This document shows, piece by piece, positions 31,283 to 46,109 of a stretch of 64,000 nucleotides of DNA. The position numbers were made by a program, and so were the translations under genes. Origin of the DNA: Paractinoplanes rishiriensis (lineage in GTDB: Bacteria; Actinomycetota; Actinomycetes; Mycobacteriales; Micromonosporaceae). The stretch lies in contig NZ_BOMV01000069.1 in the NCBI RefSeq assembly GCF_016862375.1, positions 62,001 through 126,000 of the forward strand, read 5' to 3'. Below the pieces are notes generated by a model. That model saw nothing but the letters and a program-made list of their open reading frames with translations, searched no databases and was not told the origin of the DNA. The first letter of the stretch is position 1. The number at the start of each line of letters is the position of its first letter.

Positions 31283-31320
31283 TTGACGTGCACGCGCAGA
31301 AAGTTACACTCCAAGTGTAA
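31283..31320 (+). promoter_or_regulatory. promoter and palindromic operator of the catabolic operon
   Basis: TTGACG (31283-31288) and TACACT (31305-31310), 16 bp apart, form a good sigma-70-type promoter. The perfect palindrome TTACACT-CCA-AGTGTAA (31304-31320) covers the -10 box, so a repressor bound there would block transcription. The TetR protein encoded at the end of the operon is the obvious candidate. Confidence 0.75.
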
Positions 31321-31376
31321 ATAGTTGACCCCTCACCTTCTACACAGGACTCTCCACCGGTCCGGACGGGGTGTCT

Positions 31377-32081
31377 ATGTCAACCAGCGACAACTCGGGG
31401 CTTTCTCTTCAGCACATAACTGTTCGCTTCGGCGGGCTGCTGGCACTTGATGACGTTTCGCTCCGGGTTTCGCCGGGGCGGGTCGTGGGGGTCATCGGGC
31501 CCAACGGGGCCGGCAAGACGACGCTCTTCAACGTGGTCAGCGGCTTCGTTGTGCCGCAGTCGGGGGCGATCACGCTCGACGGCCGAGCGTTCCGGCCCCG
31601 GCCTCATCAGCTCAACCGGAACGGGATCGCGCGCACGCTGCAGGGCGTCGGCCAGTTCAACGGCATGACCGTGCTCGACAACGTGCTGGTCGGCGCGCCG
31701 AAGCGCACCGGCGAGGACGCGGCCTTCGAGGTGCTCGAGCGCTGCGGGGTCGCCGAGCACGCGTACTCATACCCGGCCCTGCTGCCCTATGCCAAGCGCA
31801 AGCGGGTCGAACTGGCCCGTGCCCTCGTGGCCCGCCCCCGGATTTTGATGCTCGACGAGCCGGCCGGCGGGCTGGACACCGACGAGATCGCGTGGCTGGC
31901 CGAGCTGATCCGGGAGGCCGACATGACCGTCCTGCTGGTCGAGCACCACATGGATCTCGTGATGAGCGTGTGCGACGAGATCCTGGTGCTCGACTTCGGC
32001 AAGCCGATCGCGCTCGGCACGCCGGGCGAGATCCGGAACGATCCCAAGGTCACCGACGCCTACCTGGGTGCCGCCGCATGA
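31377..32081 (+). CDS. branched-chain-type (HAAT) ABC transporter ATPase, LivG-like
   Basis: A 234-residue ABC ATPase: Walker A GPNGAGKTT, Q-loop region RTLQGVGQFNGMTV, Walker B ILMLDEPAGGL and switch His in VLLVEHHMDLVMSVCD. The signature stretch LLPYAKRKRVELARAL departs from the usual LSYGQQR form. It powers uptake together with the LivF-, LivH- and LivM-like proteins. ATG 31377 is taken; GTG 31371 is two codons earlier. First gene of a tightly packed operon; it overlaps the next by ATGA. Confidence 0.88.
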   Translation: MSTSDNSGLSLQHITVRFGGLLALDDVSLRVSPGRVVGVIGPNGAGKTTLFNVVSGFVVPQSGAITLDGRAFRPRPHQLNRNGIARTLQGVGQFNGMTVLDNVLVGAPKRTGEDAAFEVLERCGVAEHAYSYPALLPYAKRKRVELARALVARPRILMLDEPAGGLDTDEIAWLAELIREADMTVLLVEHHMDLVMSVCDEILVLDFGKPIALGTPGEIRNDPKVTDAYLGAAA

Positions 32082-32785
32082 GCGGGCTGCTGGCAGTCGA
32101 GGGGTTGAGCGCTGGCTACGGGGCCGTGCCGGTGCTGCACGAGATCGACCTGACCGTGCAGCCGGGCGAAATTGTCGCCGTGCTGGGTGCGAACGGCGCC
32201 GGCAAGACGACGCTGCTGCGTACCGTCTCCGGATTGTTGCCGGCCACCGCGGGGCGGGTGACCATCGACGGCGTCGACCTGCGCACGGTCCGGCCGGAAC
32301 GCATGGTGCGGCACGGCGTCGCCCACGTGCCGGAGGGGCGCGGCGTGGTCACCGAGTTGACCGTGGACGAAAACCTGCGGCTCGGCGGGCTGTGGCGCCG
32401 CAGCAAACCGGCCGACCGGGACGAGATCTACGAGCTGTTCCCGCCGCTGGCCGAGCGCCGGCACCAGCCCGGGCACCAACTGTCCGGCGGCGAACGGCAG
32501 ATGCTCGCGCTGGGCCGGGCGCTGATCGCCAAGCCGCGGCTGCTGCTGCTCGACGAGCCGTCGCTGGGGCTGGCTCCCAAGATCATCGCGCAGATCATGG
32601 GGCTGCTGCGGGATCTGCGCGACCGCACCGGACTGGCCGTGCTGCTGGTCGAGCAGAACGTGCGCAGCGCCCTGTCCATCGCCGACGTCGGGGTCGTGTT
32701 GTCGCTGGGCCGGGTCGCCGCCCGGGACAGTGCCGCGACGCTCGCCGCCGACGCCGATCTCCGGCACGCCTACCTGGGGTTCTGA
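32078..32785 (+). CDS. branched-chain-type ABC transporter ATPase, LivF-like
   Basis: A 235-residue ABC ATPase with Walker A GANGAGKTT, the LivF-typical VRHGVAHVPEGRGVVTELTVDENL, signature LSGGERQMLALGRAL, Walker B LLLLDEPSLGLAP and VLLVEQNVRSAL. Pairs with the preceding LivG-like subunit. ATGA overlap with the gene before; the permease starts one base after the stop. Confidence 0.9.
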   Translation: MSGLLAVEGLSAGYGAVPVLHEIDLTVQPGEIVAVLGANGAGKTTLLRTVSGLLPATAGRVTIDGVDLRTVRPERMVRHGVAHVPEGRGVVTELTVDENLRLGGLWRRSKPADRDEIYELFPPLAERRHQPGHQLSGGERQMLALGRALIAKPRLLLLDEPSLGLAPKIIAQIMGLLRDLRDRTGLAVLLVEQNVRSALSIADVGVVLSLGRVAARDSAATLAADADLRHAYLGF

Positions 32786-32786
32786 T

Positions 32787-33665
32787 ATGGACCGCTTCCT
32801 CTATCTCACCTTCGACGGGCTCAGCCGGGGCGCCGTGTACGCGGCGTTCGCGCTCGCCCTGGTCCTGATCTGGCGGGCCGCCCGGATCGTCAACTTCGCC
32901 CAGGGCGCGATGGCCGTCGCGACCGCCTATGTCGGCTACTCGGTCAGCAACGCGGTCGGCTCCTACTGGGTCGGGTTCGCGGTCGCGCTGACCGGCGGAC
33001 TGGTGCTGGGCGCCGTGGTCGAGCGGGTCGTGATGCGGTTCGTCGACCATTCGTCGCCGCTGAACGGGGTGGTGGTCGCGCTCGGGCTGGTGCTGATCAT
33101 CCACGGGGTGCTCGGCATGGTCTACGGCAACGAGTACCTGCCGGCCCCGGCGCCGTTCAGCCGGGACGCCTTCCAGGTCGGCGGCGTCGCCCTGCTCTCA
33201 CGCTACGACCTGTTCGTCTTCGCCGCGGTGGGCGCGGTGGTCGTCCTGCTCACGCTTCTTTTTACCCGTACGGAGACCGGCCTGCGGATGCGTGCCGCGG
33301 CGTTCGCACCCGACGTGTCCCGGCTGCTCGGTGTGCCGGTGGCCGGCATGCTGACGCTCGGCTGGGCACTGGCTGCCGCGGTCGGGTCGCTGGCCGGCAT
33401 GTTGGTCATCCCCACCGAGTTGGGCCTGCACCCGAACGCCATGGACCTGCTGTTCATCTCGGCGTTCACCGCCGCGGTGCTGGGCGGCCTGGACTCGCCG
33501 GTCGGCGCGGTGGTCGGCGGGCTCATCGTCGGGCTGTTGCTCACCTACGTCAGCGGCTATCTGGGCGCCACGGTCGCGCCGATGGCGGTGCTGGCCCTGC
33601 TCGTGGTCGTGCTGCTCGGCCGGCCGGGCGGGCTGTTCTCCGGGGCGAAGGCGAGGACGGCATGA
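32787..33665 (+). CDS. branched-chain-type ABC permease, LivH-like
   Basis: A 292-residue permease with about eight membrane helices. It begins with LTFDGLSRGAVYAAFALALVLIW and has the LivH signature IVNFAQGAMAVATAYVGY near residues 37-54, then GVPVAGMLTLGWALAAAVGSLAGML. It forms the membrane channel with the LivM-like subunit. The substrate is not readable from sequence. Confidence 0.9.
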   Translation: MDRFLYLTFDGLSRGAVYAAFALALVLIWRAARIVNFAQGAMAVATAYVGYSVSNAVGSYWVGFAVALTGGLVLGAVVERVVMRFVDHSSPLNGVVVALGLVLIIHGVLGMVYGNEYLPAPAPFSRDAFQVGGVALLSRYDLFVFAAVGAVVVLLTLLFTRTETGLRMRAAAFAPDVSRLLGVPVAGMLTLGWALAAAVGSLAGMLVIPTELGLHPNAMDLLFISAFTAAVLGGLDSPVGAVVGGLIVGLLLTYVSGYLGATVAPMAVLALLVVVLLGRPGGLFSGAKARTA

Positions 33666-34669
33666 CCGCGATCGAGGAGCGCATCACCACGGCTGGGAAA
33701 AAGCCGGCAAAGCGGCGGAAGATCAGCCCGCTCCTGGTGATCGGGATCGGGGCCGTCCTGGTGGTGGCGCTGACCTACGTCCTGCCGCCGTTCCGCAACT
33801 ACCAGTTCGCCACGGTCGGCGCCTACTTCTGCGTGACCGCCGGCCTGACCGTCCTCACCGGGCTCAACGGCCAGCTCTCGCTGGGCCACGGCGCGCTGAT
33901 GGCGACCGGCGCGTACACCCTCGCGCTCATGCAGAACCGGTTCAACCTGCTGGCCGCCGGGATCGTCGCCGCCATCCTGGTGACCACCGCGGTGGGCGCC
34001 GTGATCGGCCTGGCCGCGGCCCGGCTGCGCGGCCCGTACCTGGCCGGCCTCACGCTCGCGGTCGCGGTCGTGGTGCCGTCCGTCACCAGCACTTTCGACG
34101 AGACGTTCAACAGCGATCAGGGCCTGACCGTGGCGCTCGAACCGCCGCCGGAAGCGATCCTGATGGAGCAGTGGCAGGCCTGGCTGTGCTGGGGCGGCGC
34201 GCTGGTCACCGTGCTGCTGCTGTCCTATCTGGTGCGCGGCCGGTTCGGGCGGGAGATGCGGGCCGTCCGCGACGACGAGACCGCCGCCAAACTCGCCGGC
34301 GTCAGCGTCGCGCGTACCCAGGTCCTTGCTTTTGTGGTTTCCTCCGCCTGCGCCGGCCTGGCCGGTGCCCTGTTCGCCGTGCTGGCGCAGAGCGTCTCGC
34401 CCGGTGCATTCCCGCTCACCCTCTCGCTGTTCCTGGTGATGGCGATCGTGATCGGTGGTCTGGGCCGGCTGTGGGGCGCACTGATCGGTGCCGTGCTGCT
34501 GGTGGCCCTGCCGTCGGTGGCGCAGACCATCGCGGAGGACGCCGGCTCCCAGCGGCTCGAGGGCAACCTCGCGCTCACCTTCTTCGGCGTCGTCCTCGTC
34601 GTCGTCATGCTGGCCGCGCCCGGCGGCCTGGCGTCTCTCCGAGTTCCGCGTAGGAAGAAGGGTCTTTGA
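33662..34669 (+). CDS. branched-chain-type ABC permease, LivM-like
   Basis: A 335-residue permease. A basic cytoplasmic N-terminus (about 20 residues) precedes about nine to ten membrane helices and the LivM motif LTGLNGQLSLGHGALMATGAYTLAL. AAKLAGVSVARTQVLAFVVSSACAGLAGALFA is the conserved EAA-like coupling region. The start overlaps the LivH-like stop (ATGA) and the stop overlaps the lipoprotein start (TGATG). Confidence 0.9.
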   Translation: MTAIEERITTAGKKPAKRRKISPLLVIGIGAVLVVALTYVLPPFRNYQFATVGAYFCVTAGLTVLTGLNGQLSLGHGALMATGAYTLALMQNRFNLLAAGIVAAILVTTAVGAVIGLAAARLRGPYLAGLTLAVAVVVPSVTSTFDETFNSDQGLTVALEPPPEAILMEQWQAWLCWGGALVTVLLLSYLVRGRFGREMRAVRDDETAAKLAGVSVARTQVLAFVVSSACAGLAGALFAVLAQSVSPGAFPLTLSLFLVMAIVIGGLGRLWGALIGAVLLVALPSVAQTIAEDAGSQRLEGNLALTFFGVVLVVVMLAAPGGLASLRVPRRKKGL

Positions 34670-35937
34670 TGAAACGCACCGCGACCGTCCTCGCCGCCGT
34701 GCTGCTGGCCGCCGCCGGCTGCAGCAGCAACGGAGACAGCAATAACAGTGGCAGCAGCGCCAACACCCCGGGAGTGACCGACACCGAGATCGTCGTCGGC
34801 ACCCACATGCCCCTCACCGGTCCGGCCGCGGCCGGCTATTCGAAGATCGCGCCGGCCTCCAAGGCGTACTTCGACTTCGTCAACGCGAACGGCGGCGTGC
34901 ACGGCCGCAAGATCACATACAAGATCATGGACGACGGCTACAACCCGTCGAACACCCAGCAGGTGGTGCGTGAACTGGTCCTCCAGGACAAGGTGTTCGC
35001 GATCCTGAACGGCCTCGGCACCCCCACGCACACCGGCGTCCTGGACTTCCTCAAGACCAACCGGGTGCCCGACCTGTTCGTGGCCAGCGGCAGCCGGAGC
35101 TGGAACCAGCCGGACAAGTATCCGGGCACGTTCGGCTTCAACCCGGACTACACGGTCGAGGGCAAGATCCTGGCCACTCACGTGAAAGAGACGCACGCCG
35201 GTAAGAAGGTGTGCTTCCTCGGCCAGGACGACGACTTCGGCCGGGACAGCCTGGCCGGCATCGAGAAGATCCTCGGTCCGGTGGCGGCCAAGCAGTCGTA
35301 CGTGACCAGCAATCCCAACGTCGGACCGCAGATGGGCGCGCTGAAGGCGGCTGGATGCCAGGTAGTGATGCTTGCCACTGTGCCCGGTTTCACAGCGCTC
35401 TCCATCGGCACGGCCGCAAAGATCGGTTTCAAGCCGCAGTTCGTGGTGAGCAACGTCGGCTCCGACCCGACCACGCTCGCCAAGACGCTGGGCGCCGCGG
35501 CGCCGCTGCTCGAGGGCGTGGTGGCGGCCAACTACCTGCCCCTGGCCACCGATGATGCGAACCCCTGGATCCAGCTCTACAAGAAGGTCAACGCGCAGTA
35601 CAACGGCAACGCCGAGTTCGACAACAACATCATCTACGGCATGTCGGTCGCGTACCTCTTCGTGCAGACCCTGCAGGCCGCCGGCCAGGACCTGACCAGG
35701 GAGAAGCTGATCGAGACGGTCGAGAAGGGCGGCTTCACCGGACCGGGCCTGGTCCCGCTGCGGTTCTCCAAGGAAGATCATTCCGGGTACGGCGGACAGC
35801 AGCTCACCAAGCTCACCGACGGCAAGGCCACCTATTTCGGTACGCCCTACCAGACCGACGACAAGGACGGGCCGGTCGCACCGCTGCAGGCACAGGTGGT
35901 CGCGCCACCGGCCAACGGAATCCCCGCGGCACAGTAG
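34669..35937 (+). CDS. ABC transporter substrate-binding lipoprotein (LivK-like)
   Basis: A 422-residue periplasmic-binding-fold I protein. The lipoprotein signal is MKRTATVLAAVLLAAAGCSS, with the lipobox LLAAAGC and Cys17. A Ser/Asn linker precedes TDTEIVVGTHMPLTGPAAAGYSK, then PASKAYFDFVNANGGVHGRKI and the DDGYNPSNTQQVVREL stretch typical of HAAT binding proteins. It captures the substrate outside the membrane for the LivHM-like channel. The family binds amino acids, amides, aromatic acids and other small acids, so the ligand is open. AGGAAGAAGGG precedes the ATG. Confidence 0.92.
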   Translation: MKRTATVLAAVLLAAAGCSSNGDSNNSGSSANTPGVTDTEIVVGTHMPLTGPAAAGYSKIAPASKAYFDFVNANGGVHGRKITYKIMDDGYNPSNTQQVVRELVLQDKVFAILNGLGTPTHTGVLDFLKTNRVPDLFVASGSRSWNQPDKYPGTFGFNPDYTVEGKILATHVKETHAGKKVCFLGQDDDFGRDSLAGIEKILGPVAAKQSYVTSNPNVGPQMGALKAAGCQVVMLATVPGFTALSIGTAAKIGFKPQFVVSNVGSDPTTLAKTLGAAAPLLEGVVAANYLPLATDDANPWIQLYKKVNAQYNGNAEFDNNIIYGMSVAYLFVQTLQAAGQDLTREKLIETVEKGGFTGPGLVPLRFSKEDHSGYGGQQLTKLTDGKATYFGTPYQTDDKDGPVAPLQAQVVAPPANGIPAAQ

Positions 35938-35983
35938 CGTCTGGGTCGGAACGTACTGTTCGGTAGCTAACTAAGGAGCGGCG

Positions 35984-36727
35984 ATGGCGGACCAAGTGGC
36001 GATCGTGACCGGGGCAAGCCGCGGCATCGGCTTCGCCATCGCGCAACGCTTCGTGGCCGAGGGCTACCGGGTGGCCATCACCGGCCGCAACGCCGAGGCG
36101 CTCGAGCAGGCCGTGCTCGACCTGGGCGGCGCCGGGGTGGCGATCGGCATCGCCGGCAAGGGCGACGACCCCGAGCACCGGGCCACCGTGATCGACACCG
36201 TCCTCGGGCAGTTCGGGCCGGTCACCACCCTGGTCAACAACATCGGGATCAACCCGGCGTACGGGCCGCTCGGCACGCTCGACCTCGGCGCCGCCCGCAA
36301 GATGATCGACGTGAACGTCCTCGGCACGCTCGGCTGGGTGCAGGAAGGCCTGCGCGGCGGGCTGGCCGAGGGCGGCTCGATCGTCAACATCTCGTCGGTC
36401 TCCGGCGTGCGCCCGGCGCCGGGGATCGCGTTCTACGGGGTGACCAAGGCCGCGCTGATCCACCTGACCGAGGAACTGGCCGTCGAGCTGGCGCCGAGGA
36501 TCCGGGTCAACGCGGTCGCCCCGGCCGTGGTCAAGACCAGGTTCGCCAGCGCGCTCTACGAGGGTCGCGAGGAGCAGGTGGCCGGCACATACCCGCTGCG
36601 CCGGCTCGGCGTGCCCGAGGACATCGCCGGCGCGGTCGCCTTCCTCTGCTCGCCGGACGCCGCCTGGATCACCGGCCAGACCATCGTGATCGACGGCGGC
36701 CTGACCCTCACCGGGGCGGTGGGATGA
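35984..36727 (+). CDS. short-chain dehydrogenase/reductase, FabG-like
   Basis: A 247-residue classical SDR: cofactor motif VTGASRGIGFAIA, NNIGIN, catalytic Ser in INISSVSG-type VNISSVSG, YxxxK in FYGVTKAAL, and the C-terminal ITGQTIVIDGGLTLTG. It oxidises or reduces a hydroxy/keto group, perhaps on an acyl-CoA. A 46-bp gap separates it from the binding protein and contains TAGCTAACTAAGG just before the start, so a secondary promoter is possible. It overlaps the next SDR by ATGA. Confidence 0.9.
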   Translation: MADQVAIVTGASRGIGFAIAQRFVAEGYRVAITGRNAEALEQAVLDLGGAGVAIGIAGKGDDPEHRATVIDTVLGQFGPVTTLVNNIGINPAYGPLGTLDLGAARKMIDVNVLGTLGWVQEGLRGGLAEGGSIVNISSVSGVRPAPGIAFYGVTKAALIHLTEELAVELAPRIRVNAVAPAVVKTRFASALYEGREEQVAGTYPLRRLGVPEDIAGAVAFLCSPDAAWITGQTIVIDGGLTLTGAVG

Positions 36728-37500
36728 GGCGGGTCGTGGTCACCGGTGCCGGTGGTGGCATCGGCGCGGCCCTGGCCCGTCGCTTCGCGGCCGAGGGCGC
36801 CGAGGTGATCGTGAACGATGTCAACCCGGCCGCCGCCCAGGCCGTGGCCTCCGAGATCGGCGGTCTCGCGGTGGCCGGTGACGCCGCGGTCGAGGACGAC
36901 ACCCGCCTGCTGATCGAGACCGCCTGGGCCGAACTCGGTGGCCTCGACCTGTTCTGCGCCAACGCCGGCGTGCTCTCGGCCGGCGACGAGAACACCCCCG
37001 ACGAGCTGTGGACCCGGGACTTCGCGGTGAACGTGATGTCCCACGTCTACGTCACCCGGCATCTGCTCCCCCGCTGGCTCGACCAGGACACTCCGAAGCG
37101 GCTGCTCATCACGGTCAGCGCGGCCGGCCTGCTGTCCCTGCTGGGCAGCGCGCCGTACGCGGTCACCAAGCACGCCGCCCTCGCATACGCCGAATGGCTG
37201 CGTGCCACGTACAGCCATCGGGGTTTGATCGTGCAGGCACTGTGCCCGCAGGGCGTGCGCACCGACATGCTGCTGCGCGGCGGTGAGCGCGGCAGCGCGA
37301 GTGCCGCCCTGCTGGCCGAGGGCGCGCTGGAACCGGACGAGGTCGCCACGGTCGTCGGCAAGGCGCTCGAGGGCGAAAGCTTCCTGATCCTGCCGCACCC
37401 CGAGGTGGCCGACTACTACCGGCTGCGGGCCTCGGACCCCGACCGATGGCTGGGCGGGATGAACAAGATGCAGCGGGCGTTCGAGGGCGGCGCGGCATGA
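36724..37500 (+). CDS. short-chain dehydrogenase/reductase
   Basis: A 258-residue SDR with VTGAGGGIGAALARRFAAEGAEVIVNDVN (TGxxxGxG), ANAGVLS, a catalytic Ser in LLITVSAAGL and YAVTKHAAL (YxxxK). The C-terminus lacks the usual TGQ-IDGG end and instead has SFLILPHPEVADYYRLRASDPDRWLGGM, which is typical of SDRs found beside acyl-CoA metabolism genes. ATGA overlaps on both sides tie it to the FabG-like SDR and the kinase. Confidence 0.88.
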   Translation: MRRVVVTGAGGGIGAALARRFAAEGAEVIVNDVNPAAAQAVASEIGGLAVAGDAAVEDDTRLLIETAWAELGGLDLFCANAGVLSAGDENTPDELWTRDFAVNVMSHVYVTRHLLPRWLDQDTPKRLLITVSAAGLLSLLGSAPYAVTKHAALAYAEWLRATYSHRGLIVQALCPQGVRTDMLLRGGERGSASAALLAEGALEPDEVATVVGKALEGESFLILPHPEVADYYRLRASDPDRWLGGMNKMQRAFEGGAA

Positions 37501-38483
37501 AGGGTCTCGACCTCGAACGCCTTCGCGGGTTTCTGCAGACCGGCGAGTTGACCGGGCAGATGTTCGCCGGCGGCCGGTCCAATCTCACGTACGCGGTCAC
37601 CGACGGCGAGCAGCGCTGGGTGCTGCGCCGCCCGCCGCTCGGGCACGTGCTGCCCACCGCGCACGACATGGTGCGCGAGCACCGGGTGCTGGAGGCCCTG
37701 TCGAAGGCCGGCTTCCCGGCACCGCGCCCGGTGGTGCTGTGCACCGACACCGAGGTGATCGGCGCGCCGTTCTATCTCATGGAGCATGTGGACGGACGGA
37801 TCTATCGCGATCTGACCGACCTCGCTGCGCTCGGCCCGGATGCCGTACGCGACCTGACCCTGTCCCTGGTGGACACGCTGGCCCACCTGCACTCGCTCGA
37901 CCCGGTCGCGATCGGGCTGGCCGGCTTCGGCCGCCCGGAGGGCTTCAACCAGCGCCAGGTGGTGCGGTGGAAGAAGCAGCTGGACGCGTCCCGCAGCCGG
38001 GACGTTCCCGGCATCGACGAGTTGCACGCCCGGCTCGCGGTGGACGTCCCGGCCGGTGCCGGTGCGGTGGTGCACGGCGACTTCCGGCTCGACAACGTGC
38101 TGATCGGGCCGGACCTCGACGTCCGCGCGGTGCTCGACTGGGAGATGTCCACCCTCGGCGACCCGCTCAGCGACGTGGCCCTGATGCTGGTCTACGCCGG
38201 CCTGCCGCTGAACGTGGGCGACGGCAAGGCTCCGGTGCCGCTGGCGGTGCCCGGTCATCCCACGGTCGCCGAGATGAGCGCGCACTACGCCGGGCGCAGC
38301 GGCCGGGACGTGAGCGACCTGCACTGGTACGTGGCGTTCGCCTCGTTCAAGCTGGCCGTGATCCTGGAAGGCGTGCACTACCGATACGTGCAGGGACAGA
38401 CCGTGGGTGACGGTTTCGAGACGATCGGCAACCTGGTCGGCCCGTTGGTGATGCGCGGCCACAAGGCGCTGGAGGAAAACTGA
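37497..38483 (+). CDS. APH-family phosphotransferase of the ACAD10/11-LvaA type
   Basis: A 328-residue kinase-fold protein: GGRSNLTYAVTDGEQRWVLRRPPLGHVLPTAHDMVREHRVL (nucleotide-binding lobe), the catalytic loop VVHGDFRLDNVLI (HxDxxxxN) and the metal-binding AVLDWEMSTLGDPLSD. Proteins of this subgroup sit beside or fused to acyl-CoA dehydrogenases. In Pseudomonas LvaA and mammalian ACAD10/11 the kinase phosphorylates the 4-hydroxyl of a 4-hydroxyacyl-CoA before the dehydrogenase partner acts. Here it overlaps an acyl-CoA dehydrogenase gene by TGATG. The reaction is inferred from these relatives. Antibiotic phosphorylation is unlikely in this context. Confidence 0.82.
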   Translation: MKGLDLERLRGFLQTGELTGQMFAGGRSNLTYAVTDGEQRWVLRRPPLGHVLPTAHDMVREHRVLEALSKAGFPAPRPVVLCTDTEVIGAPFYLMEHVDGRIYRDLTDLAALGPDAVRDLTLSLVDTLAHLHSLDPVAIGLAGFGRPEGFNQRQVVRWKKQLDASRSRDVPGIDELHARLAVDVPAGAGAVVHGDFRLDNVLIGPDLDVRAVLDWEMSTLGDPLSDVALMLVYAGLPLNVGDGKAPVPLAVPGHPTVAEMSAHYAGRSGRDVSDLHWYVAFASFKLAVILEGVHYRYVQGQTVGDGFETIGNLVGPLVMRGHKALEEN

Positions 38484-39685
38484 TGGACTTCGGCTACGAC
38501 GCCCGCACCGAGGACCTCCGCAAGCGGCTGCTCGCCTTCATGGACGAGTACGTCTATCCGGCCGAGGCCTTCTATCACGAGCACACCGGCTGGGAACCGC
38601 CGTCCGTCCTCCCGCGCCTCCAGGCCCAGGCTCGGCTGGCCGGCCTGTGGAACCTCTTCCTGCCCGGCACGCACGGTGCCGGCCTGACAAATCTGCAGTA
38701 CGCCCCGCTGGCCGAGATCACCGGCCGCAGCCCGGCCCTGGCGCCCGCTGCGCTGAACTGCGCCGCGCCCGACACCGGCAACATGGAGGTGCTGGCCGAG
38801 TTCGGCACCGCGGAGCAGCAGCGCGACTGGTTGCAGCCGCTGCTGGACGGCACGATCCGCTCCGCGTTCGCGATGACCGAGCCCGGCGTGGCCTCCTCCG
38901 ACGCCACCAACATCGGCACCCGCATCGAACGCGACGGCGACGACTACGTCATCAACGGCCACAAATTCTTCATCACCGGCGCCATGAACCCGAACTGCCG
39001 CATCTTCATCGTGATGGGCAAGACGGACCCCGCTGCGGCCCGCCATGTGCAGCAGAGCATGGTCCTGGTCCCGCGGGACACCCCCGGCGTCACGGTGAAG
39101 CGCGGCATGACCGTCTTCGGCTACAGCGACGGCGATCACGGCGGTCACGCCGAGGTCATCTTCGAAGATGTGCGCGTCCCCGCCACCAACCTGATCGGCG
39201 AGGAGGGCGGCGGCTTCGCGATCTCCCAGGCCCGCCTCGGCCCCGGCCGCATCCACCACTGCATGCGGCTCATCGGCATGGCCGAGCGCGCCCTGGAACT
39301 GATGTGCACGCGGGCGCTGTCCCGCACCCCGTTCGGCAAACCCCTGGCCGAGCAGGGCGTGGTGCAGGATTGGATCGCCGAGTCGCGGGTGCGCATCGAG
39401 CAGGCCCGCCTGCTGGTCCTGAAGGCCGCGTGGCTGATGGACACGGTGGGCAACAAGGGTGCCCACACCGAGATCCAGGCCATCAAAATCATCCTGCCGC
39501 AGACCGTGGAGTGGATCGTCGACAAGGCCATTCAGACGTACGGGGCGGCCGGCGTCAGCCAGGACACCCCGCTGGCCATGCTGTGGGTGGGCGCCCGCAC
39601 CCTGCGCCTGGCCGACGGCCCCGACGAGGTGCACAAGCGCTCTCTGGCCCACCGAGAGTTGAAGCGATACCGGAGCACGCCGTGA
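38483..39685 (+). CDS. acyl-CoA dehydrogenase, ACAD11/LvaC-like
   Basis: A 400-residue FAD-dependent acyl-CoA dehydrogenase-fold protein: AFAMTEPGVASSDATNIGTRI (flavin-contact motif), FFITGAMNPNCRIFIVMG, FEDVRVPATNLIGEEGGGFAISQARLGPGRIHHCMRLIG, SRTPFGKPLAEQGVVQDWIAESR and the C-terminal RLADGPDEVHKRSLAHREL. The RLADGPDEVH ending is typical of the ACAD10/11-like branch that works with an APH-type kinase. I infer that it converts a phosphorylated 4-hydroxyacyl-CoA, or simply an acyl-CoA, toward beta-oxidation. Its start overlaps the kinase stop; its stop overlaps the TetR start (GTGA). Confidence 0.87.
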   Translation: MDFGYDARTEDLRKRLLAFMDEYVYPAEAFYHEHTGWEPPSVLPRLQAQARLAGLWNLFLPGTHGAGLTNLQYAPLAEITGRSPALAPAALNCAAPDTGNMEVLAEFGTAEQQRDWLQPLLDGTIRSAFAMTEPGVASSDATNIGTRIERDGDDYVINGHKFFITGAMNPNCRIFIVMGKTDPAAARHVQQSMVLVPRDTPGVTVKRGMTVFGYSDGDHGGHAEVIFEDVRVPATNLIGEEGGGFAISQARLGPGRIHHCMRLIGMAERALELMCTRALSRTPFGKPLAEQGVVQDWIAESRVRIEQARLLVLKAAWLMDTVGNKGAHTEIQAIKIILPQTVEWIVDKAIQTYGAAGVSQDTPLAMLWVGARTLRLADGPDEVHKRSLAHRELKRYRSTP

Positions 39686-40254
39686 CCAAGGTGGACGGGC
39701 GCACCGCGCGCTCGGAACGCACCCGCAAGGCGATTGTGGACGCCCACCTACAGCTGATCAGCGAGGGCGACCTGCGCCCCACCGCCGACCGGATCGCCAA
39801 GCTGGCCGGGGTGTCGCTGCGGGCGCTGTGGAGCCATTTCGCCGACATGGAGGCACTGTTCGCGGAGAGCGGCGCCCGGGTACTGGAAATCCGCGACGCG
39901 ACACACAAGCCGATCGCGGCGGACCTGCCGCTGCCGGAACGCATCGAGGCGTACTGCAAGCAGCGAGCCCGGATGCTGGAGCAGATCGGCCCGGCCGCGA
40001 AAGCTGCGGGGCTGAAGGAGCCGTTCTCGGAGGCGCTGCGCAACTATCGGCGAATCCATGTGTCGCGGGTGCGCGAGGAGTTGGCGACGCTCTTCGCGGC
40101 GGAGATCAACGGGGATGAGCCGCTGCTGAACGCGCTGACCGCGGTGAGCATGTTCCCGACCTGGTCGACGTGGCGCGAGGTGATGGGCATGGAGGTGCCG
40201 GAGGCGAGGGCAACGCTGTCCCGAGCCCTCACCGCCCTGCTCGCCCCCCATTGA
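39682..40254 (+). CDS. TetR-family regulator of the catabolic operon
   Basis: A 190-residue TetR-type protein with an N-terminal HTH (RSERTRKAIVDAHLQLISEGDLRPTADRIAKLAGVSLRALWSHFADMEALFAES, about 10-64) and a helical ligand domain. Being the last gene of the operon and overlapping the acyl-CoA dehydrogenase (GTGA), it probably autoregulates through the palindrome at 31304-31320. An acyl-CoA or pathway acid would be the expected ligand. Both points are inference. Confidence 0.85.
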   Translation: MTKVDGRTARSERTRKAIVDAHLQLISEGDLRPTADRIAKLAGVSLRALWSHFADMEALFAESGARVLEIRDATHKPIAADLPLPERIEAYCKQRARMLEQIGPAAKAAGLKEPFSEALRNYRRIHVSRVREELATLFAAEINGDEPLLNALTAVSMFPTWSTWREVMGMEVPEARATLSRALTALLAPH

Positions 40255-40270
40255 CGACCCCGTTACGAGG

Positions 40271-40819
40271 TCACTGTGCATTTCGGCGGGGTTTGGCGTT
40301 GCGCAGGCGGATGCCGCTGAAGCCGACCGAGCTTGTGATCACCTCGTCCCAGAAGGACCACAGGTTGTCCAGCAGGCGCAGTTGGATGCCGGCCTCGGCG
40401 TGGCAGTCCAGCAGGTTGCCGACCGGCTCGGGTGGGCCCAGCGGGCGGACCGGTTCGGTGGACACCTGGGCGTGCGGGGCGTTCGGGTCGCCGATGCCCC
40501 GGAAAACCTCGGCCGGCATACGGTAGGCGTACAGCTTGATGGTTTGCATTTTTTCGAGCCAGCCGTATTCGATGGCGTGCACGCGCTCGCCCGAACCGGC
40601 GCCGATGATGCGGTCGCGGTCGGCCGGTGTGGTGCGGGGCACCACCCAGGCCATGCCGCGGGGGCACTGCCGCGGGAACCAATAGCTGGGTGCGTGGTCA
40701 AAATCCACGGCCCAGACGTACGGGTCCTTCTCCGCGGACGTGGCTGCCACGTGCGGGACGAACAGGTCGATGGTCGGATCTTCCGAGAAGTGCAGATACT
40801 CCCCCGCGGCCGGTCGCAT
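40271..40819 (-). CDS. DUF6886-like protein
   Basis: A 182-residue protein with HFSEDPTIDLFVPHVAAT near the start, YVWAVDFDHAPSYWFPRQCPRGMAWV, and a C-terminal helical part (LLDNLWSFWDEVITSSVGFSGIRLRNA). I match this to the family I know as DUF6886, whose function is unknown. TAACCT lies six bases before the ATG at 40819 on the minus strand, so the mRNA is probably leaderless. It converges on the TetR gene and lies just downstream of the alcohol dehydrogenase gene, but has its own promoter. Confidence 0.65.
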   Translation of the reverse strand: MRPAAGEYLHFSEDPTIDLFVPHVAATSAEKDPYVWAVDFDHAPSYWFPRQCPRGMAWVVPRTTPADRDRIIGAGSGERVHAIEYGWLEKMQTIKLYAYRMPAEVFRGIGDPNAPHAQVSTEPVRPLGPPEPVGNLLDCHAEAGIQLRLLDNLWSFWDEVITSSVGFSGIRLRNAKPRRNAQ

Positions 40820-40825
40820 CCGGAC

Positions 40826-40831
40826 AGGTTA
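40826..40831 (-). promoter_or_regulatory. -10 box of a leaderless promoter
   Basis: TAACCT on the minus strand is six bases before ATG 40819. Confidence 0.5.
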
Positions 40832-41920
40832 CGAGAACTGGACCACCGAGCGTGCCCCCTCGCCGCGGGCCATCTTGTCGAACGCCTCGGGCACCTCGGT
40901 CAGCTCGATCCGGTCGGTGATCAGGTGATCCAGCGGGAGGGCGCCGCTCAGGGCGTCGGCGGCCAGGCGTGGGATCTCGATGTCCGGATCGGCGGCGCCG
41001 TAGACCGACGAGCGCAGGGTGCGGGCCGACGAGAAGATGTCCAGGGCGGACAGTTGCACCAGGTCGTCGTTGCTGCCCATGCCGACCACGGTGACCCGGC
41101 CGCCACGACGGGTGGCCCGCCACGCCGCCCGGATCGTCGCGGCCCGGCCCACGCACTCGATGGCGTGGTCGGCGCCGCGGCCCGCGGTGCGGACCCGGAT
41201 CTCCTTGGACAGCGCGTCCGACGAGACCAGGAAGTCGGTGGCGCCGGCCGCCTCGGCCAGGCCCTGCTTCGCCTCGGTGACGTCGACCGCGATCACGTCG
41301 GAGGCGCCGGCCGCCCGGGCCGCGGCCACCACCGCGAGACCGACCCCGCCCAGGCCGATCACCACGACCGACTCGCCGGGCGCCACCTGGGCCGTGTTGC
41401 GGACCGCGCCGGTGCCGGTCAGCACACCGCAGCCGAGCAGTGCGGCCCGGTCGAAGTCGAGTTCGGCCGGCACCCGGATCAGCGCGTTTTCCGGGGCTAC
41501 CACCTGCTGGGCGAACGCGCCCAGGCCGAGGCCCACGTGCACCGGGGCGTTGTCCAGGGTGATGCCGTTCTCCAGGGCCGCGATGCCGGACGACGTGGAG
41601 CACAGCCACGGCTCGGCGCGCCCGCAGAACCAGCAGTTGCGGCAGGCCGGCTGCCAGTTGAGCACCACCCGGTCACCGACCTCGGCCCGGGTCACGCCGC
41701 GGCCGGCCTCGACCACCTCGCCGGCCGCCTCATGGCCGAGGACCAGCGGGTACGGCGCGCGGATCGTGCCGTTGAGCATGGACAGGTCGGAGTGGCAAAC
41801 GCCGGCCGCCCGGATGCGCACCCGCACCTGCCCGGGGCCGACCTCGGGCAGGCGCAGCTCGGCCACGGCGGGCCGCGACCCGGATTCGCGTACCACCAAG
41901 CCTTTGAAGTAACGAGTCAC
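40829..41920 (-). CDS. zinc-dependent alcohol dehydrogenase (class III-like MDR)
   Basis: A 363-residue medium-chain dehydrogenase. Catalytic zinc site residues lie in AAGVCHSDLSMLNG and PLVLGHEAAGEVVEAG. The structural zinc motif is NWQPACRNCWFCGRAEPWLC, and the NAD site is VVVIGLGGVGLAVVAAARAAGASDVIAVDV. It should oxidise a primary alcohol to an aldehyde with NAD or a related cofactor. GTG 41920 overlaps the stop of the aldehyde dehydrogenase gene (GTGA), so the two enzymes are made together: alcohol to aldehyde to acid. Confidence 0.9.
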   Translation of the reverse strand: MTRYFKGLVVRESGSRPAVAELRLPEVGPGQVRVRIRAAGVCHSDLSMLNGTIRAPYPLVLGHEAAGEVVEAGRGVTRAEVGDRVVLNWQPACRNCWFCGRAEPWLCSTSSGIAALENGITLDNAPVHVGLGLGAFAQQVVAPENALIRVPAELDFDRAALLGCGVLTGTGAVRNTAQVAPGESVVVIGLGGVGLAVVAAARAAGASDVIAVDVTEAKQGLAEAAGATDFLVSSDALSKEIRVRTAGRGADHAIECVGRAATIRAAWRATRRGGRVTVVGMGSNDDLVQLSALDIFSSARTLRSSVYGAADPDIEIPRLAADALSGALPLDHLITDRIELTEVPEAFDKMARGEGARSVVQFS

Positions 41921-43335
41921 TTCTGACCGTGCTCCTTGAATTGGATGGCTTTCGTTTGCTGGAACTCGGCCAGACCGTACTCGCCCAGCTCGCGTCCCAC
42001 GCCCGATTGCTTGTATCCGCCAAATGGGGCGAGTGGGTTGAAGGCTCCGCCGTTGACGTCGACCGCGCCGGTCCGCAGCCGCCGGGCCACCGCGAGGGCC
42101 CGCTCGTCGGAGCCCCACACGGCGCCGGCCAGGCCGTAGCGGGAGTTGTTGGCGATCGACACGGCCTCGTCGTCGCTGTCGAACGGGATGATCGACAGAA
42201 CCGGGCCGAAGATCTCCTCCTGGGCCAGTTCGCTGTCCGGGTCGACGTCGGCGAAGACGGTGGGCGCCACGAAGTAGCCGCGCTCCGGCAGCGGCGCGTC
42301 GGGGCCGCCGGCCACCAGGCGCGCCGTGGCGCGGTCGACGAAGCCGCGCACCCGGTCGCGCTGGGCGGCCGAGACCAGCGGGCCGAGCCGGGTGCCCTCG
42401 TCGAACGGATCGCCCACCGGGTAGCCGTCGGCGGCCTTCGCGGCCAGGGTGACCGCCTCGTCGTAGCGGGACCGGTGCACCAGCATCCGGGTCCAGGCCG
42501 TGCAGGTCTGTCCCGAGTTGAGGAACGCGTTGCCGACGCCCACCTTGACCGCCCTGGTCAGGTCGGCGTCGTCCAGGATCACGTTGGCCGACTTGCCGCC
42601 CAGTTCCAGCGCCACCCGGGCGATCCGGTCGGCGGCCGCGTGCGCGACGGCCCGGCCGGTGGCGGTGGAGCCGGTGAACGACACCATGTCGACCCCGGGA
42701 TGGCCGGCGATGGCCGCGCCCACCTCGGCGCCGGTGCCGGTGACCAGGTTGAGCACGCCGGGCGGCACCCCCGCCTCGTCGGCCGCCTCGCACAGCAGGA
42801 ACGCCACCAGCGGGGTGAGCTCGCTCGGCTTGAGCACCACGGTGCAGCCGGCCGCCAGGGCCGCGGCCACCTTGGCCACCACCTGGTGCAGCGGGTAGTT
42901 CCAGGGTGTGATCGCACCGACCACGCCGACCGGCTCGTGCTCGATCAGCGAGTTTCCGATCGTTTCGGTCCGCTGGTCGCGTACCGCCACATCGGCATAG
43001 CCACGCAGGACCGTGAGCGGAAGTCCCGCCTGCACCGCCCTGGCCACCTTGAGCGGCGTGCCCAGCTCGAGCCCCACGGTCCGGGCAATGTCGCCCGCCC
43101 GGGCGGCGAGCGCGCCGTGCAGCCGGTCGAGCACCGCCCCGCGCCCGGCCATCGGCGTGGCCGCCCAGCCGGGAAAGGCCTCGGTCGCCGCGGCCACCGC
43201 CCGGTCCACGTCCTGCGCGGTGCCGGCCGGCACGTGGCCCAGCACCTCCTCGGTCGCCGGATTTTCCACCGCGATGGTTTCGGCCGACGCGGGCGCGACC
43301 CACTGCCCGCCGAGGTAGAGCTCAGATGTGGTCAT
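41917..43335 (-). CDS. aldehyde dehydrogenase (NAD(P)+)
   Basis: A 472-residue aldehyde dehydrogenase: [29 protein letters not shown], the general-base Glu in [12 protein letters not shown], the catalytic Cys in [12 protein letters not shown], and [14 protein letters not shown]. It oxidises an aldehyde to a carboxylic acid. It is the first gene of a two-gene minus-strand unit with the alcohol dehydrogenase. ATG 43335 is preferred to the in-frame GTG four codons upstream. A TTGACA (-35) lies on the minus strand at 43382-43377. Confidence 0.92.
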
Positions 43336-43370
43336 CGTTGTCCTCACCCTGCGCTATGAGAAATCTGCAC

Positions 43371-43400
43371 TGGACGTGTCAAAACTTGTCTGGCTAGTTT
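43371..43400 (+). promoter_or_regulatory. promoter of the acyl-CoA dehydrogenase/ligase unit
   Basis: TGGACG (43371-43376) and TAGTTT (43395-43400), 18 bp apart, precede ATG 43408 by seven bases. The divergent TTGACA for the aldehyde dehydrogenase overlaps the -35 region, so the two units are probably co-controlled. Confidence 0.55.
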
Positions 43401-43407
43401 AAGGGAC

Positions 43408-44580
43408 ATGGACTTCTCGCTCACCGACGAAGAGCGTGCGATTCGCGACACCGCTCGCCAGTTCATCACCCGTGAGGTCATGCCGCTCGAGCAGGAGGCA
43501 CTTCTGCGCGAGCGCCGGCACAAGACCGGCCTGGAACGCAGCGAACTGCGCGAACTCCAGCTCAAGGCCAAGAAGTTCGGCTTCTGGGGGCTGTCCACGC
43601 CGGAGGAGTACGGCGGGATGGACCTGCCGGCCGTCGTGCAGTCGCTGATCTGGACCGAGATCGGCCGCACCTTCGTGCAGTTCCGGTTCGGCGGCGAGGC
43701 GGACAACATCCTCTACTACGCCAACGACGAGCAGAAGAAGGAATACCTGCTGCCCACCATCGAGGGCGAGCGCATCTCCTGCTTCGCGATCACCGAGCCG
43801 GGCGCGGGCTCGGATGCGGCGAACATCAAGCTCCGGGCCCAGCAGGACGGCGACGACTGGGTCCTGAACGGCGAAAAAACCTTCATCACGAACGGGAACG
43901 ACGCCGACTTCGCGATCGTGGTGGCGGTGACCGACCCGTCCCGCCGGGCCAGCGACGGCGGCGCGACCGCATTCCTGGTCGACCGCTCGATGGGCTGGCG
44001 CTCGGAGTTCATCCAGACCATGGGCGAGGGCGGTCCGGCCTCGCTGATCTTCGACGACGTACGGGTGCCGGCCCGCAACATGCTCGGCGAGCTGGGTCAG
44101 GGCTTCGAGCTGGGGATGAAGTGGATCGGCCGGGGGCGCTATCTCATCCCGTCCAACGCGCTGGGCATCGCGGAGCGGGCACTCGGCATGGCCATCGAGT
44201 ACGCCAACACGCGCGAGACGTTCGGCCGCCGGATCGGTGACAATCAGGCGATCCAGTGGATGCTCGCCGACTCCGAGGTCGAGCTGGAGGCGGCCCGCTG
44301 GCTGATCCTGCGCGCGGCCTGGACCGTCGACCAGGGCTGGGATCCCCGGCACTCGTCGTCGATGGCCAAGCTGTACGGCGCCGGCATGGTCAACCGGGTG
44401 GTCGACCGGGTCATGCAGATCCACGGCGGCATGGGCTACACCCGCGAGCTGCCGATCGAGCGCTGGTACCGGCAGGTCCGGCTGCTCCGGATCTACGAGG
44501 GCACCGACGAGATGCAACGCTTGATCATCTCCCGCGATCTCCTGCGCGGGTACACCAAGATCGGAGGGCATCTCGCATGA
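43408..44580 (+). CDS. acyl-CoA dehydrogenase
   Basis: A 390-residue flavoprotein with the standard layout: FSLTDEERAIRDTARQFITREVMPLE, CFAITEPGAGSDAANIKLRA, the FITNGNDADFAIVVAV strand, GFELGMKWIGRGRYLIPSNALGIAERAL, and the C-terminal RVMQIHGGMGYTRELPIERWYRQVRLLRIYEGTDEMQRLIISRDLL. Typical acyl-CoA dehydrogenases introduce the 2,3-double bond of an acyl-CoA and pass electrons to ETF. It overlaps the CoA ligase gene (ATGA). It differs clearly from the ACAD11-like paralogue at 38483. Confidence 0.92.
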   Translation: MDFSLTDEERAIRDTARQFITREVMPLEQEALLRERRHKTGLERSELRELQLKAKKFGFWGLSTPEEYGGMDLPAVVQSLIWTEIGRTFVQFRFGGEADNILYYANDEQKKEYLLPTIEGERISCFAITEPGAGSDAANIKLRAQQDGDDWVLNGEKTFITNGNDADFAIVVAVTDPSRRASDGGATAFLVDRSMGWRSEFIQTMGEGGPASLIFDDVRVPARNMLGELGQGFELGMKWIGRGRYLIPSNALGIAERALGMAIEYANTRETFGRRIGDNQAIQWMLADSEVELEAARWLILRAAWTVDQGWDPRHSSSMAKLYGAGMVNRVVDRVMQIHGGMGYTRELPIERWYRQVRLLRIYEGTDEMQRLIISRDLLRGYTKIGGHLA

Positions 44581-46109
44581 CCCAACTGTCGCTGGCCACC
44601 GTCCTGGCCGAGGCGGCCCGTAAACACCCCGGCAAACTGGCCGTGGTGGACAGCGCCACCACCGAGCGGATCACCTACGCCGACCTCTGGCAGCAGACCC
44701 TCGGCTACGCGGCCGGCCTGCGCGAGCTGGGCATCGGTCCCGGCGACACGGTCGCGATCCAGATCCCGAACCTGGCCGACTTCCCCCGGGTCTACTACGC
44801 CGTCCTCGCGGTGGGCGCCACCATCGTCCCGATGCACCTGCTGCTCACCGCCGACGAGAACGCGTACGTACTGCGGGACAGCGGCGCGAAACTCCTGGTC
44901 GCGCACTCCAGCCAGCTGGCCAACGCGGTGGCCGCCGCCGGGCAGGCCGGGATCGACGTGGTCTCAGTGGGCCCGCCGGCCGGGGTGCGCCGCCTCGAGG
45001 ACGCGGCCGCCGCGGTCCCGCCGCTACGCACGTACGTGAGCCGCGAGGCCGAGGACGTCGCGGTCGTCTTCTATACCAGCGGCACCACGGGCAAGCCCAA
45101 GGGTGCCCTGCTCACCCACCTCAACCTCGTGCTGAACACGATGGTCAACGTCTTCGACATCCACGACCTGCGCGACGATGACGTGGTGATGGGCTGCCTG
45201 CCGCTGTTCCACACGTTCGGCCAGACCGTGGGCATGAACGGCACGTTCCGGATGGGCGGCACCATCGTGCTGCTGGCCCGCTTCTCCGGCGAGGCCGCGA
45301 TCGACCTGATGGTCAAGGAGAACGTGACCATCTTCCACGGCGTGCCCACCATGTACATCGGCCTGCTGGAGGCCGCCGCCAAGGCCGACCGCCTGCCCGC
45401 CCTGCGGCTCTGCGTCTCGGGTGGCGCTTCGCTGCCGGTGGCCGTGCTGGAGAAGTTCGACCAGACCTTCCAAGCCAAGATCTTTGAGGGGTACGGGCTT
45501 TCCGAGACTTCACCGACGGCGACCACCAACCAGCCGGCCTTCGGCGCCCGGCCCGGCACGGTCGGGCACCCGATCTGGGGCGTCGAGGTGGAGATCGCCC
45601 GCCCCGAGTTCGACGACCGGATCGAGCTGATGGACACCGGCGAGCTGGGCGAGATAGTGATCCGCGGACACAACGTCTTCGCCGGCTATCTGAACAACGA
45701 GGAGGCCACCCGGCAGGCCGTGGTGGACGGCTGGTTCCGCACCGGCGACCTCGGCACCCGGGACGCCGAGGGCTTCATCACGATCGTCGACCGCAAGAAG
45801 GACATGGTGCTGCGCGGCGGCTTCAACGTCTACCCGCGCGAGGTCGAGGAGGTGCTGGCCCGCCACCCCGCGGTCGTGCAGGTCGCGGTAATCGGGGTGC
45901 CCGACCCGGTGCAGGGCGAGGAGATCTGCGCCGTGGTGGTGGCCGATCCGGGCGGGGTGACCGCCGAGGAGTTGATCGAGTGGTCCAAGGAGCGGCTGGG
46001 CAAGCACAAATACCCGCGCCAGGTCCGCTTCGCCGAGTCGCTGCCGCTGGGTCCGAGCATGAAGGTGCTCAAGCGCGAACTGCGAAAGACGTACGGCTCA
46101 GCCGAGTAG
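44577..46109 (+). CDS. AMP-forming acyl-CoA ligase
   Basis: A 510-residue ANL-superfamily enzyme. P-loop motif VFYTSGTTGKPKGALLTH, then GYGLSETSPT, DTGELGEIVIRG, GWFRTGDLGTRDAEGFITIVDRKKDMVLRGGFNVYPREVEEVL, and the C-terminal catalytic lysine in GPSMKVLKRELR. It activates a carboxylic acid to its CoA thioester. Position after an acyl-CoA dehydrogenase and opposite alcohol/aldehyde dehydrogenases fits a route alcohol to aldehyde to acid to acyl-CoA to enoyl-CoA. The chain length of the acid is unknown. Confidence 0.92.
   Translation: MTQLSLATVLAEAARKHPGKLAVVDSATTERITYADLWQQTLGYAAGLRELGIGPGDTVAIQIPNLADFPRVYYAVLAVGATIVPMHLLLTADENAYVLRDSGAKLLVAHSSQLANAVAAAGQAGIDVVSVGPPAGVRRLEDAAAAVPPLRTYVSREAEDVAVVFYTSGTTGKPKGALLTHLNLVLNTMVNVFDIHDLRDDDVVMGCLPLFHTFGQTVGMNGTFRMGGTIVLLARFSGEAAIDLMVKENVTIFHGVPTMYIGLLEAAAKADRLPALRLCVSGGASLPVAVLEKFDQTFQAKIFEGYGLSETSPTATTNQPAFGARPGTVGHPIWGVEVEIARPEFDDRIELMDTGELGEIVIRGHNVFAGYLNNEEATRQAVVDGWFRTGDLGTRDAEGFITIVDRKKDMVLRGGFNVYPREVEEVLARHPAVVQVAVIGVPDPVQGEEICAVVVADPGGVTAEELIEWSKERLGKHKYPRQVRFAESLPLGPSMKVLKRELRKTYGSAE

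Follow-up and report, generated by a model that had tools for sequence, protein, structure and literature searches.

4-Hydroxy acids come from γ-lactones, levulinate and lipid peroxidation, and normal β-oxidation largely stalls on them. An entry route through a kinase and an acyl-CoA dehydrogenase (ACAD) of the LvaA/LvaC–ACAD10/11 type is already known, and the kinase/ACAD10/11 route was recently demonstrated in mammals, as PMC12440821 and PMC11342911 describe. What is new here is a ten-gene unit in which a pair of this type shares its operon with an ATP-binding cassette (ABC) importer under single-site control. The unit occupies positions 31371-40254 of the + strand of the window, by which we mean the whole stretch of 64,000 nucleotides of Paractinoplanes rishiriensis DNA that was analysed (contig NZ_BOMV01000069.1; host genome, 10.9 Mb). 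We consider it likely that the unit takes up 4-hydroxy (or 4-oxo) carboxylic acids through its ABC importer and passes them into kinase-assisted β-oxidation. The proposal starts from directly established observations: which genes are present and how the operon is laid out, the type of the enzymes together with their active-site residues, the conservation of promoter and operator, and a repeated importer–kinase linkage. The suggested substrate class is taken from characterised relatives, and the argument throughout is one of sequence analysis.

Profile scans of the window proteins gave the order LivG-LivF-LivH-LivM-SBP-SDR1-SDR2-kinase-ACAD-TetR, where SBP is the substrate-binding protein and the two SDRs are short-chain dehydrogenases/reductases. 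The intergenic gaps range from -4 to 46 bases (in order: -4, 1, -4, -1, 46, -4, -4, -1 and -4), which indicates a single transcription unit. In domain scans the first five genes make up a complete HAAT composition: LivG-like (31371..32081; GTG start, with an ATG at 31377 possible) and LivF-like (32078..32785; ABC_tran in Pfam) ATPases, LivH-like (32787..33665) and LivM-like (33662..34669) permeases and one Peripla_BP_6 protein, the SBP (34669..35937; TTG start at 34666 possible). LivG, LivH, LivM and SBP reached no NCBIfam cut-off among the families listed, at most 25 for each protein, and LivF was assigned by the Pfam scan only. The SBP is probably a lipoprotein, as predicted from LLAAAGC near its start (lipobox judged by eye); its nearest chain of solved structure is 4n03, for which our literature search found no publication. 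SDR1 (35984..36727), SDR2 (36724..37500), the APH-fold kinase of the ACAD10/11 type (37497..38483; earliest possible start 37446), the ACAD10/11-type (LvaC-like) dehydrogenase (38483..39685) and, as the final gene, the TetR regulator (39682..40254) follow, kinase and dehydrogenase genes overlapping by one base (38483). An original prediction, made from the letters of this region, had named the same set (a HAAT importer, two SDRs, an APH-family kinase overlapping an ACAD10/11-like dehydrogenase and a TetR), and every member was found on the + strand, the importer as five genes.

The type of the dehydrogenase is the best marked. Against PDB chains it scored 426-433 bits with ACAD11 and 419 with 4hr3, which we take to be a mycobacterial homolog; the next solved structure, the best ordinary ACAD, reached 148. 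Identity to the mouse ACAD11 domain is 54%, and no other ACAD11-type dehydrogenase exists in the host genome (918 bits versus 158 for the runner-up, an ordinary acyl-CoA dehydrogenase nearby). According to PMC12440821, residues R626, H634, R637 and catalytic D753 of ACAD11 are common to ACAD10/11 and LvaC and are connected with 4-phosphoacyl-CoA handling. In our alignment these residues of mouse ACAD11 correspond to R251, H259 and R262 of the pocket and catalytic D378 of the window enzyme, which thus has Asp where ordinary ACADs have Glu; the PDB chain index equals the paper number minus 1, as settled by the Asp-to-Asn change in 8v3v. The pocket motif R-GPGR-HH-MR was present in 84/84 homologs collected at the fetched loci (identity 55% or higher; some of them redundant) and in none of eight weaker hits.

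The kinase scored 196 bits with the ACAD11 kinase domain, and its VHGDFRLDN segment holds the catalytic Asp and Asn equivalent to D220 and N225 of ACAD11. In a kinase tree of 45 rows, an analysis proposed along with the original prediction, it fell into one group with mouse ACAD11, 3dxp and 9o56, separate from five of the six host-genome APH sequences used (support 97/96); the sixth (own_L006) is a bad fragment and was not counted, and the tree software flags a meeting of long branches. By score, tree and active-site residues, the assignment of the pair to the ACAD10/11–LvaA/LvaC type, as first suggested, is secure. The kinship with LvaA/LvaC runs through ACAD10/11 relatives rather than through the P. 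putida sequences themselves; the ACAD10 and ACAD11 domains are given as 62% and 56% identical to LvaC in PMC11342911. The enzymatic activity of the pair would be that of the characterised relatives described in PMC11342911 and PMC12440821. An ordinary APH kinase beside an ordinary FadE was ruled out by the PDB scores and the tree.

A sigma-70-like promoter precedes the unit on the + strand (31283..31310), with -35 TTGACG at 31283-31288, a 16-base spacer and -10 TACACT at 31305-31310; the start predicted for the region, 31283, coincides exactly with this -35-like box. The -10 box, upstream of livG, is covered by a perfect palindrome, TTACACTCCAAGTGTAA (31304-31320), a putative operator of 7-3-7 form readable on both strands, TTACACT-N3-AGTGTAA (TTACACTccaAGTGTAA). 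Even with three mismatches allowed, nothing else in the window matches it (0.07 expected). At 27 of 29 loci a TTGAC[A/G] box lies at the same distance from the palindrome although the sequence between them drifts; L050, one of those 27, has one mismatch, and L055 and L058 are without the site. Exactly one perfect copy was found in 56 of 67 genus genomes, the host included, and none in the reversed control; the unit therefore has a dedicated operator. The position of the palindrome was checked in 50 of those 56 genomes: in 49 it precedes the kinase by 6.1-7.3 kb, and in one it is on another contig. It is presumably bound by the TetR of the unit, of which a 52% identical homolog closes the unit of Catenuloplanes (L092).

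Within the genus group the unit is fixed. All ten genes, each at 60% identity or more, were recovered at 30 of 30 loci, 29 of them distinct since L079 is on the same contig as L040, and a kinase match at 71-84% identity was found in 59/59 other same-genus genomes. The named relatives nearest by kinase belong to Paractinoplanes, Winogradskya, Jidongwangia and Actinoplanes, and we refer to them as the Actinoplanes group. Genus-wide presence rules out a horizontally acquired island, and the "catabolic island" first proposed gives way to a unit conserved through the genus.

Outside the genus, 60 loci were found from the SBP in 394 genomes, namely the top 49 matches after the window itself, taken without omissions, and 11 weaker ones picked by hand. 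All five importer genes are present in 50 of them; in the other ten the stretch has an incomplete importer, in some cases because the contig ends. A kinase homolog (44-50% identity) occurs in the stretch at 15 of the 60, all among the 50 complete importers, and at nine of the 60 the dehydrogenase is there as well; chance linkage would be about 1% per locus, a rough estimate from gene density rather than a computed value. With that of Actinoplanes, the three arrangements outside the genus make four: ACAD-kinase divergent from the importer (six f51/f59 loci, with SDR1 in all six and the ligase in five), kinase directly 3′ of the SBP (six f28 loci) and kinase-ACAD upstream of the importer (three f41 loci). 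Genomes of named Isoptericola and Microbacterium have the divergent form too (L130, L145, L155); these loci were found via the kinase and so fall outside the 15/60 count, and they belong to the 26 rows marked as linked in the SBP tree. On this tree (71 rows) the linkage label needs five changes, at least four of them forced by well-supported branches, compared with about 21 for shuffled labels. In the kinase tree, importer-linked kinases stand at four different places, with some forks unresolved, and these placements favour a separate joining of importer and kinase. As a separate observation, L201-L205 and L207 carry a kinase right after the importer and no ACAD11-type dehydrogenase in the stretch (L204 is a short contig); a dehydrogenase match lies elsewhere in all six genomes, weakly in G225 (1e-99).

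In the pathway that we propose, the HAAT importer would bring in the acid, and the thioester would be formed by a CoA ligase, probably that encoded nearby at 44577-46109. SDR1 would reduce the 4-oxo group where needed, the kinase would phosphorylate the 4-hydroxyacyl-CoA and the ACAD10/11-type dehydrogenase would eliminate the phosphate to give a 2-enoyl-CoA for β-oxidation, the last two steps being suggested by family and residues. Repression by TetR would be exerted at the single promoter palindrome and lifted once the substrate or a CoA thioester is present. It is reasonable to hypothesize, and here we are evenly divided, that this is a hitherto undescribed HAAT importer class dedicated to 4-hydroxy/4-oxo acids (or opened γ-lactone acids), which would have joined the kinase/ACAD10/11 module several separate times in Actinomycetes and become fixed genus-wide in Actinoplanes as a single-operator scavenging system, with TetR sensing the substrate or its CoA ester.

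The accessory enzymes fit this pathway to different degrees. SDR1, a classical SDR whose nearest solved chain is DHRS4 (3o4r, 168 bits), would be the 4-oxo/4-hydroxy oxidoreductase, a putative LvaD-like role; SDR2, which matches even its best solved chain weakly (2et6, 91 bits), is perhaps a candidate (3R)-hydroxyacyl-CoA dehydrogenase for a later redox step. Homologs of both accompany the pair also in Catenuloplanes L092 and in f4. The acyl-CoA ligase (44577..46109, + strand) is the likely ortholog of the ligase of Isoptericola L130, which is encoded together with kinase, ACAD and importer; because it is the best host-genome match of the L130 ligase (505 bits versus 370 for the next), it probably belongs functionally with the unit. 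Of the lva-like set originally predicted, SDR1 and the ligase recur with the pair in a distant order, as does the importer; in the window the SDRs lie within the unit and the ligase outside it. In one or another of L061, L092, L111, L130 and L193, a medium-chain dehydrogenase/reductase (MDR), thioesterase, thiolase, MaoC hydratase or HAD hydrolase lies nearby, all fitting acyl-CoA breakdown. Beside these, we observed an MDR of the quinone-oxidoreductase (PIG3-like) kind between SDR1 and SDR2 in L092 (2325-3317) and L061 (11206-12246), possibly an enone reductase and absent from the Actinoplanes unit, and a HAD-type hydrolase near the kinase in Cryobacterium L111 (8039-8680), reminiscent of the HAD domain fused to mammalian ACAD10.

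Several results weigh against an uptake system for 4-hydroxy acids. No kinase was found in the stretch at 45 of the 60 outside SBP loci (35 of the 50 complete importers), which means that this family of importers is not restricted to 4-hydroxyacyl-CoA chemistry; the kinase-less loci include the closest full importers (L189, L190 and L191; SBP 62-66%), some related importers adjoin ACAD, ALDH and ADH (aldehyde and alcohol dehydrogenase) genes instead of a kinase (L227, L228, L230), and in the six f28 loci the kinase beside the importer has no ACAD11-type gene there. Some label changes on the SBP tree may be losses rather than gains, which leaves separate origins unproved. PDB searches turned up no solved relative of the SBP that points to a ligand class, the identity of the kinase to a characterised kinase (the mouse ACAD11 domain) is low, about 37%, and the ligase begins 4.3 kb past the unit, with none inside it. 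As for the operator, the perfect palindrome is absent from 11 of the 67 genus genomes. With up to two mismatches the host genome has one further site, a total no higher than in the reversed control, so that only the perfect copy is informative. With up to three, the operator was not found in 12 loci outside the group, Catenuloplanes included; it is therefore not older than the Actinoplanes group, or it has diverged.

One competing explanation, rather unlikely in our judgment, keeps the phosphorylate-and-eliminate logic and changes the substrate: the pair would act on a different hydroxylated acyl-CoA, for example a branched or cyclic one arising when terpenoids or alcohols are degraded, with ADH and ALDH supplying the acid from an alcohol. 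Its appeal comes from the neighbouring genes. Past the TetR lie a DUF6886 gene (40271..40819, - strand; in 16/30 genus-group loci; absent from the original prediction), a zinc ADH (40829..41920, - strand), an ALDH (41917..43347, - strand) and a second, ordinary acyl-CoA dehydrogenase (43408..44580, + strand; YEGTDEMQ at the usual catalytic place, 28% to ACAD11), followed by the ligase. In the same 30 loci (29 distinct), the unit has the ADH next to it in 18 cases, the ALDH in 15, the second ACAD in six and the ligase in 13, all lower bounds since some stretches end at contig ends. ADH and ALDH also occur by the related importer in L227, L228 and L230, and the two SDRs, joined elsewhere by the quinone-oxidoreductase-like MDR, would suit such a substrate too. 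The phosphate-pocket residues, however, are those of ACAD11, and ADH and ALDH are variable neighbours whose block has its own TetR in the four relatives checked (L039, L045, L082, L088). The original prediction was right that ADH, ALDH, second ACAD and CoA ligase adjoin the unit; its view of the first three as part of one system does not agree with these counts, and as core parts ADH and ALDH were ruled out by their variability and by that TetR.

The block itself deserves a few observations. Its TetR (TetR_N + TetR_C_1) lies between ALDH and second ACAD in L039 (15332-15937), L045 (3715-4341), L082 (15579-16247) and L088 (14454-15077); in the window just 60 bases separate these two genes (43348-43407) and the second TetR is missing. 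Importers with an SBP of 40-42% identity in L227, L228 and L230 are followed by an acyl-CoA dehydrogenase, ALDH (56-60%) and ADH (53%), resembling the window block. No copy of the unit operator was found upstream of ALDH in the 420-base stretches of the relatives (L051 and L081 disregarded), and the window has one 2-mismatch site there resembling the operator core. A second conserved site, TTAC[A/G]CCGCTAGTTT[A/T]A, is present in 12 of 30 genus-group loci (L039, L045, L046, L049, L053, L056, L057, L082, L083, L085, L087 and L088), by position close to the promoter of the second dehydrogenase in L039; it is possibly the operator of the other TetR, and the window retains just GGCTAGTTTAA of it, upstream of 43408.

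Another explanation, which we regard as improbable, is that the pair does housekeeping on 4-hydroxyacyl-CoA from lipid-peroxidation or membrane-derived acids while the importer carries other cargo (branched amino acids, for example, or ordinary carboxylates), the shared control amounting to loose carbon scavenging. In the sample of Actinomycetes, a dehydrogenase match at E <= 1e-70 was found in 275/394 genomes (in 21 of these the match does not reach 1e-120 and may be to another type of ACAD; the motif check covers the fetched loci), and SBP matches at E <= 1e-40 are rarer (115/394), as this explanation would lead one to expect; the 45 related importer loci devoid of a kinase fit it too. It accounts less well for three outside-genus arrangements that couple the same importer clade with the kinase, and for one operon under one operator in Actinoplanes. 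Because dehydrogenase matches are so common, its presence or absence per genome is uninformative, and occurrence in an actinobacterium, which had been put forward as special, is not; the importer in the same operon is what is unusual here. Finally, an unrelated sugar, antibiotic or thiamine-type kinase beside an ordinary fatty-acid dehydrogenase is very hard to credit, since the NCBIfam hits that suggest it (thiamine and aminoglycoside kinases first, 32.5 and 29.4 bits) lie far under their cut-offs (299 and 205) and PDB scores, tree and motif indicate ACAD10/11.

If the unit is an uptake-and-entry system for 4-hydroxy acids, a conserved operon with one importer and one operator would be a compact, testable system. 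It may reveal which 4-hydroxy acids bacteria really meet and by which route they import them, and the TetR/operator pair is a candidate biosensor for such acids.

Among known systems, the lva operon of Pseudomonas putida, described in part in PMC6692424 and PMC11342911, is alike in its ACAD10/11-type dehydrogenase, APH-type kinase, SDR-like oxidoreductase (LvaD, which we take from the original prediction to be an SDR) and nearby CoA ligase. The present unit, by contrast, is actinobacterial, has a TetR in place of the sigma-54 regulator LvaR and an ABC importer where the lva operon has an acetate-permease-like transporter; it has two SDRs, its ligase is outside and no helper gene was seen. Indeed, an LvaB-like protein had been noted as missing from the start: none was seen in the gene calls of the region, nor does DUF6285, presumably the LvaB family, have a match in the host genome. 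Elsewhere, DUF6285 genes adjoin a divergent APH-type kinase in 18/19 loci (L259-L277), fitting an LvaB-like helper role. The lack of LvaB as an objection was dismissed on the basis of two reports, in which recombinant ACAD10/11 is active without LvaB (PMC12440821) and the analysed region of P. citronellolis has no lvaB homolog (PMC6692424). That levulinate cluster, of P. citronellolis LA18T, resembles the unit in its LvaA homolog and, within the analysed region, in having no lvaB homolog, and differs, according to PMC6692424, in an acetate permease, a sigma-54-type regulator and a different ligase. Searches covering a set of open-licence PMC papers gave nothing judged relevant on actinobacteria together with 4-hydroxy acids, levulinate, ACAD10/11 or an ABC transporter. 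Mammalian ACAD10/ACAD11 (PMC12440821, PMC11342911) share the catalytic and pocket residues of both domains and need no separate helper, whereas here two separate genes, with no HAD domain, sit in a prokaryotic operon with an importer. HAAT importers of the LivJHMGF type, in turn, have the same five-gene composition and domain families, and it is the acyl-CoA enzymes as operon neighbours that set the present one apart.

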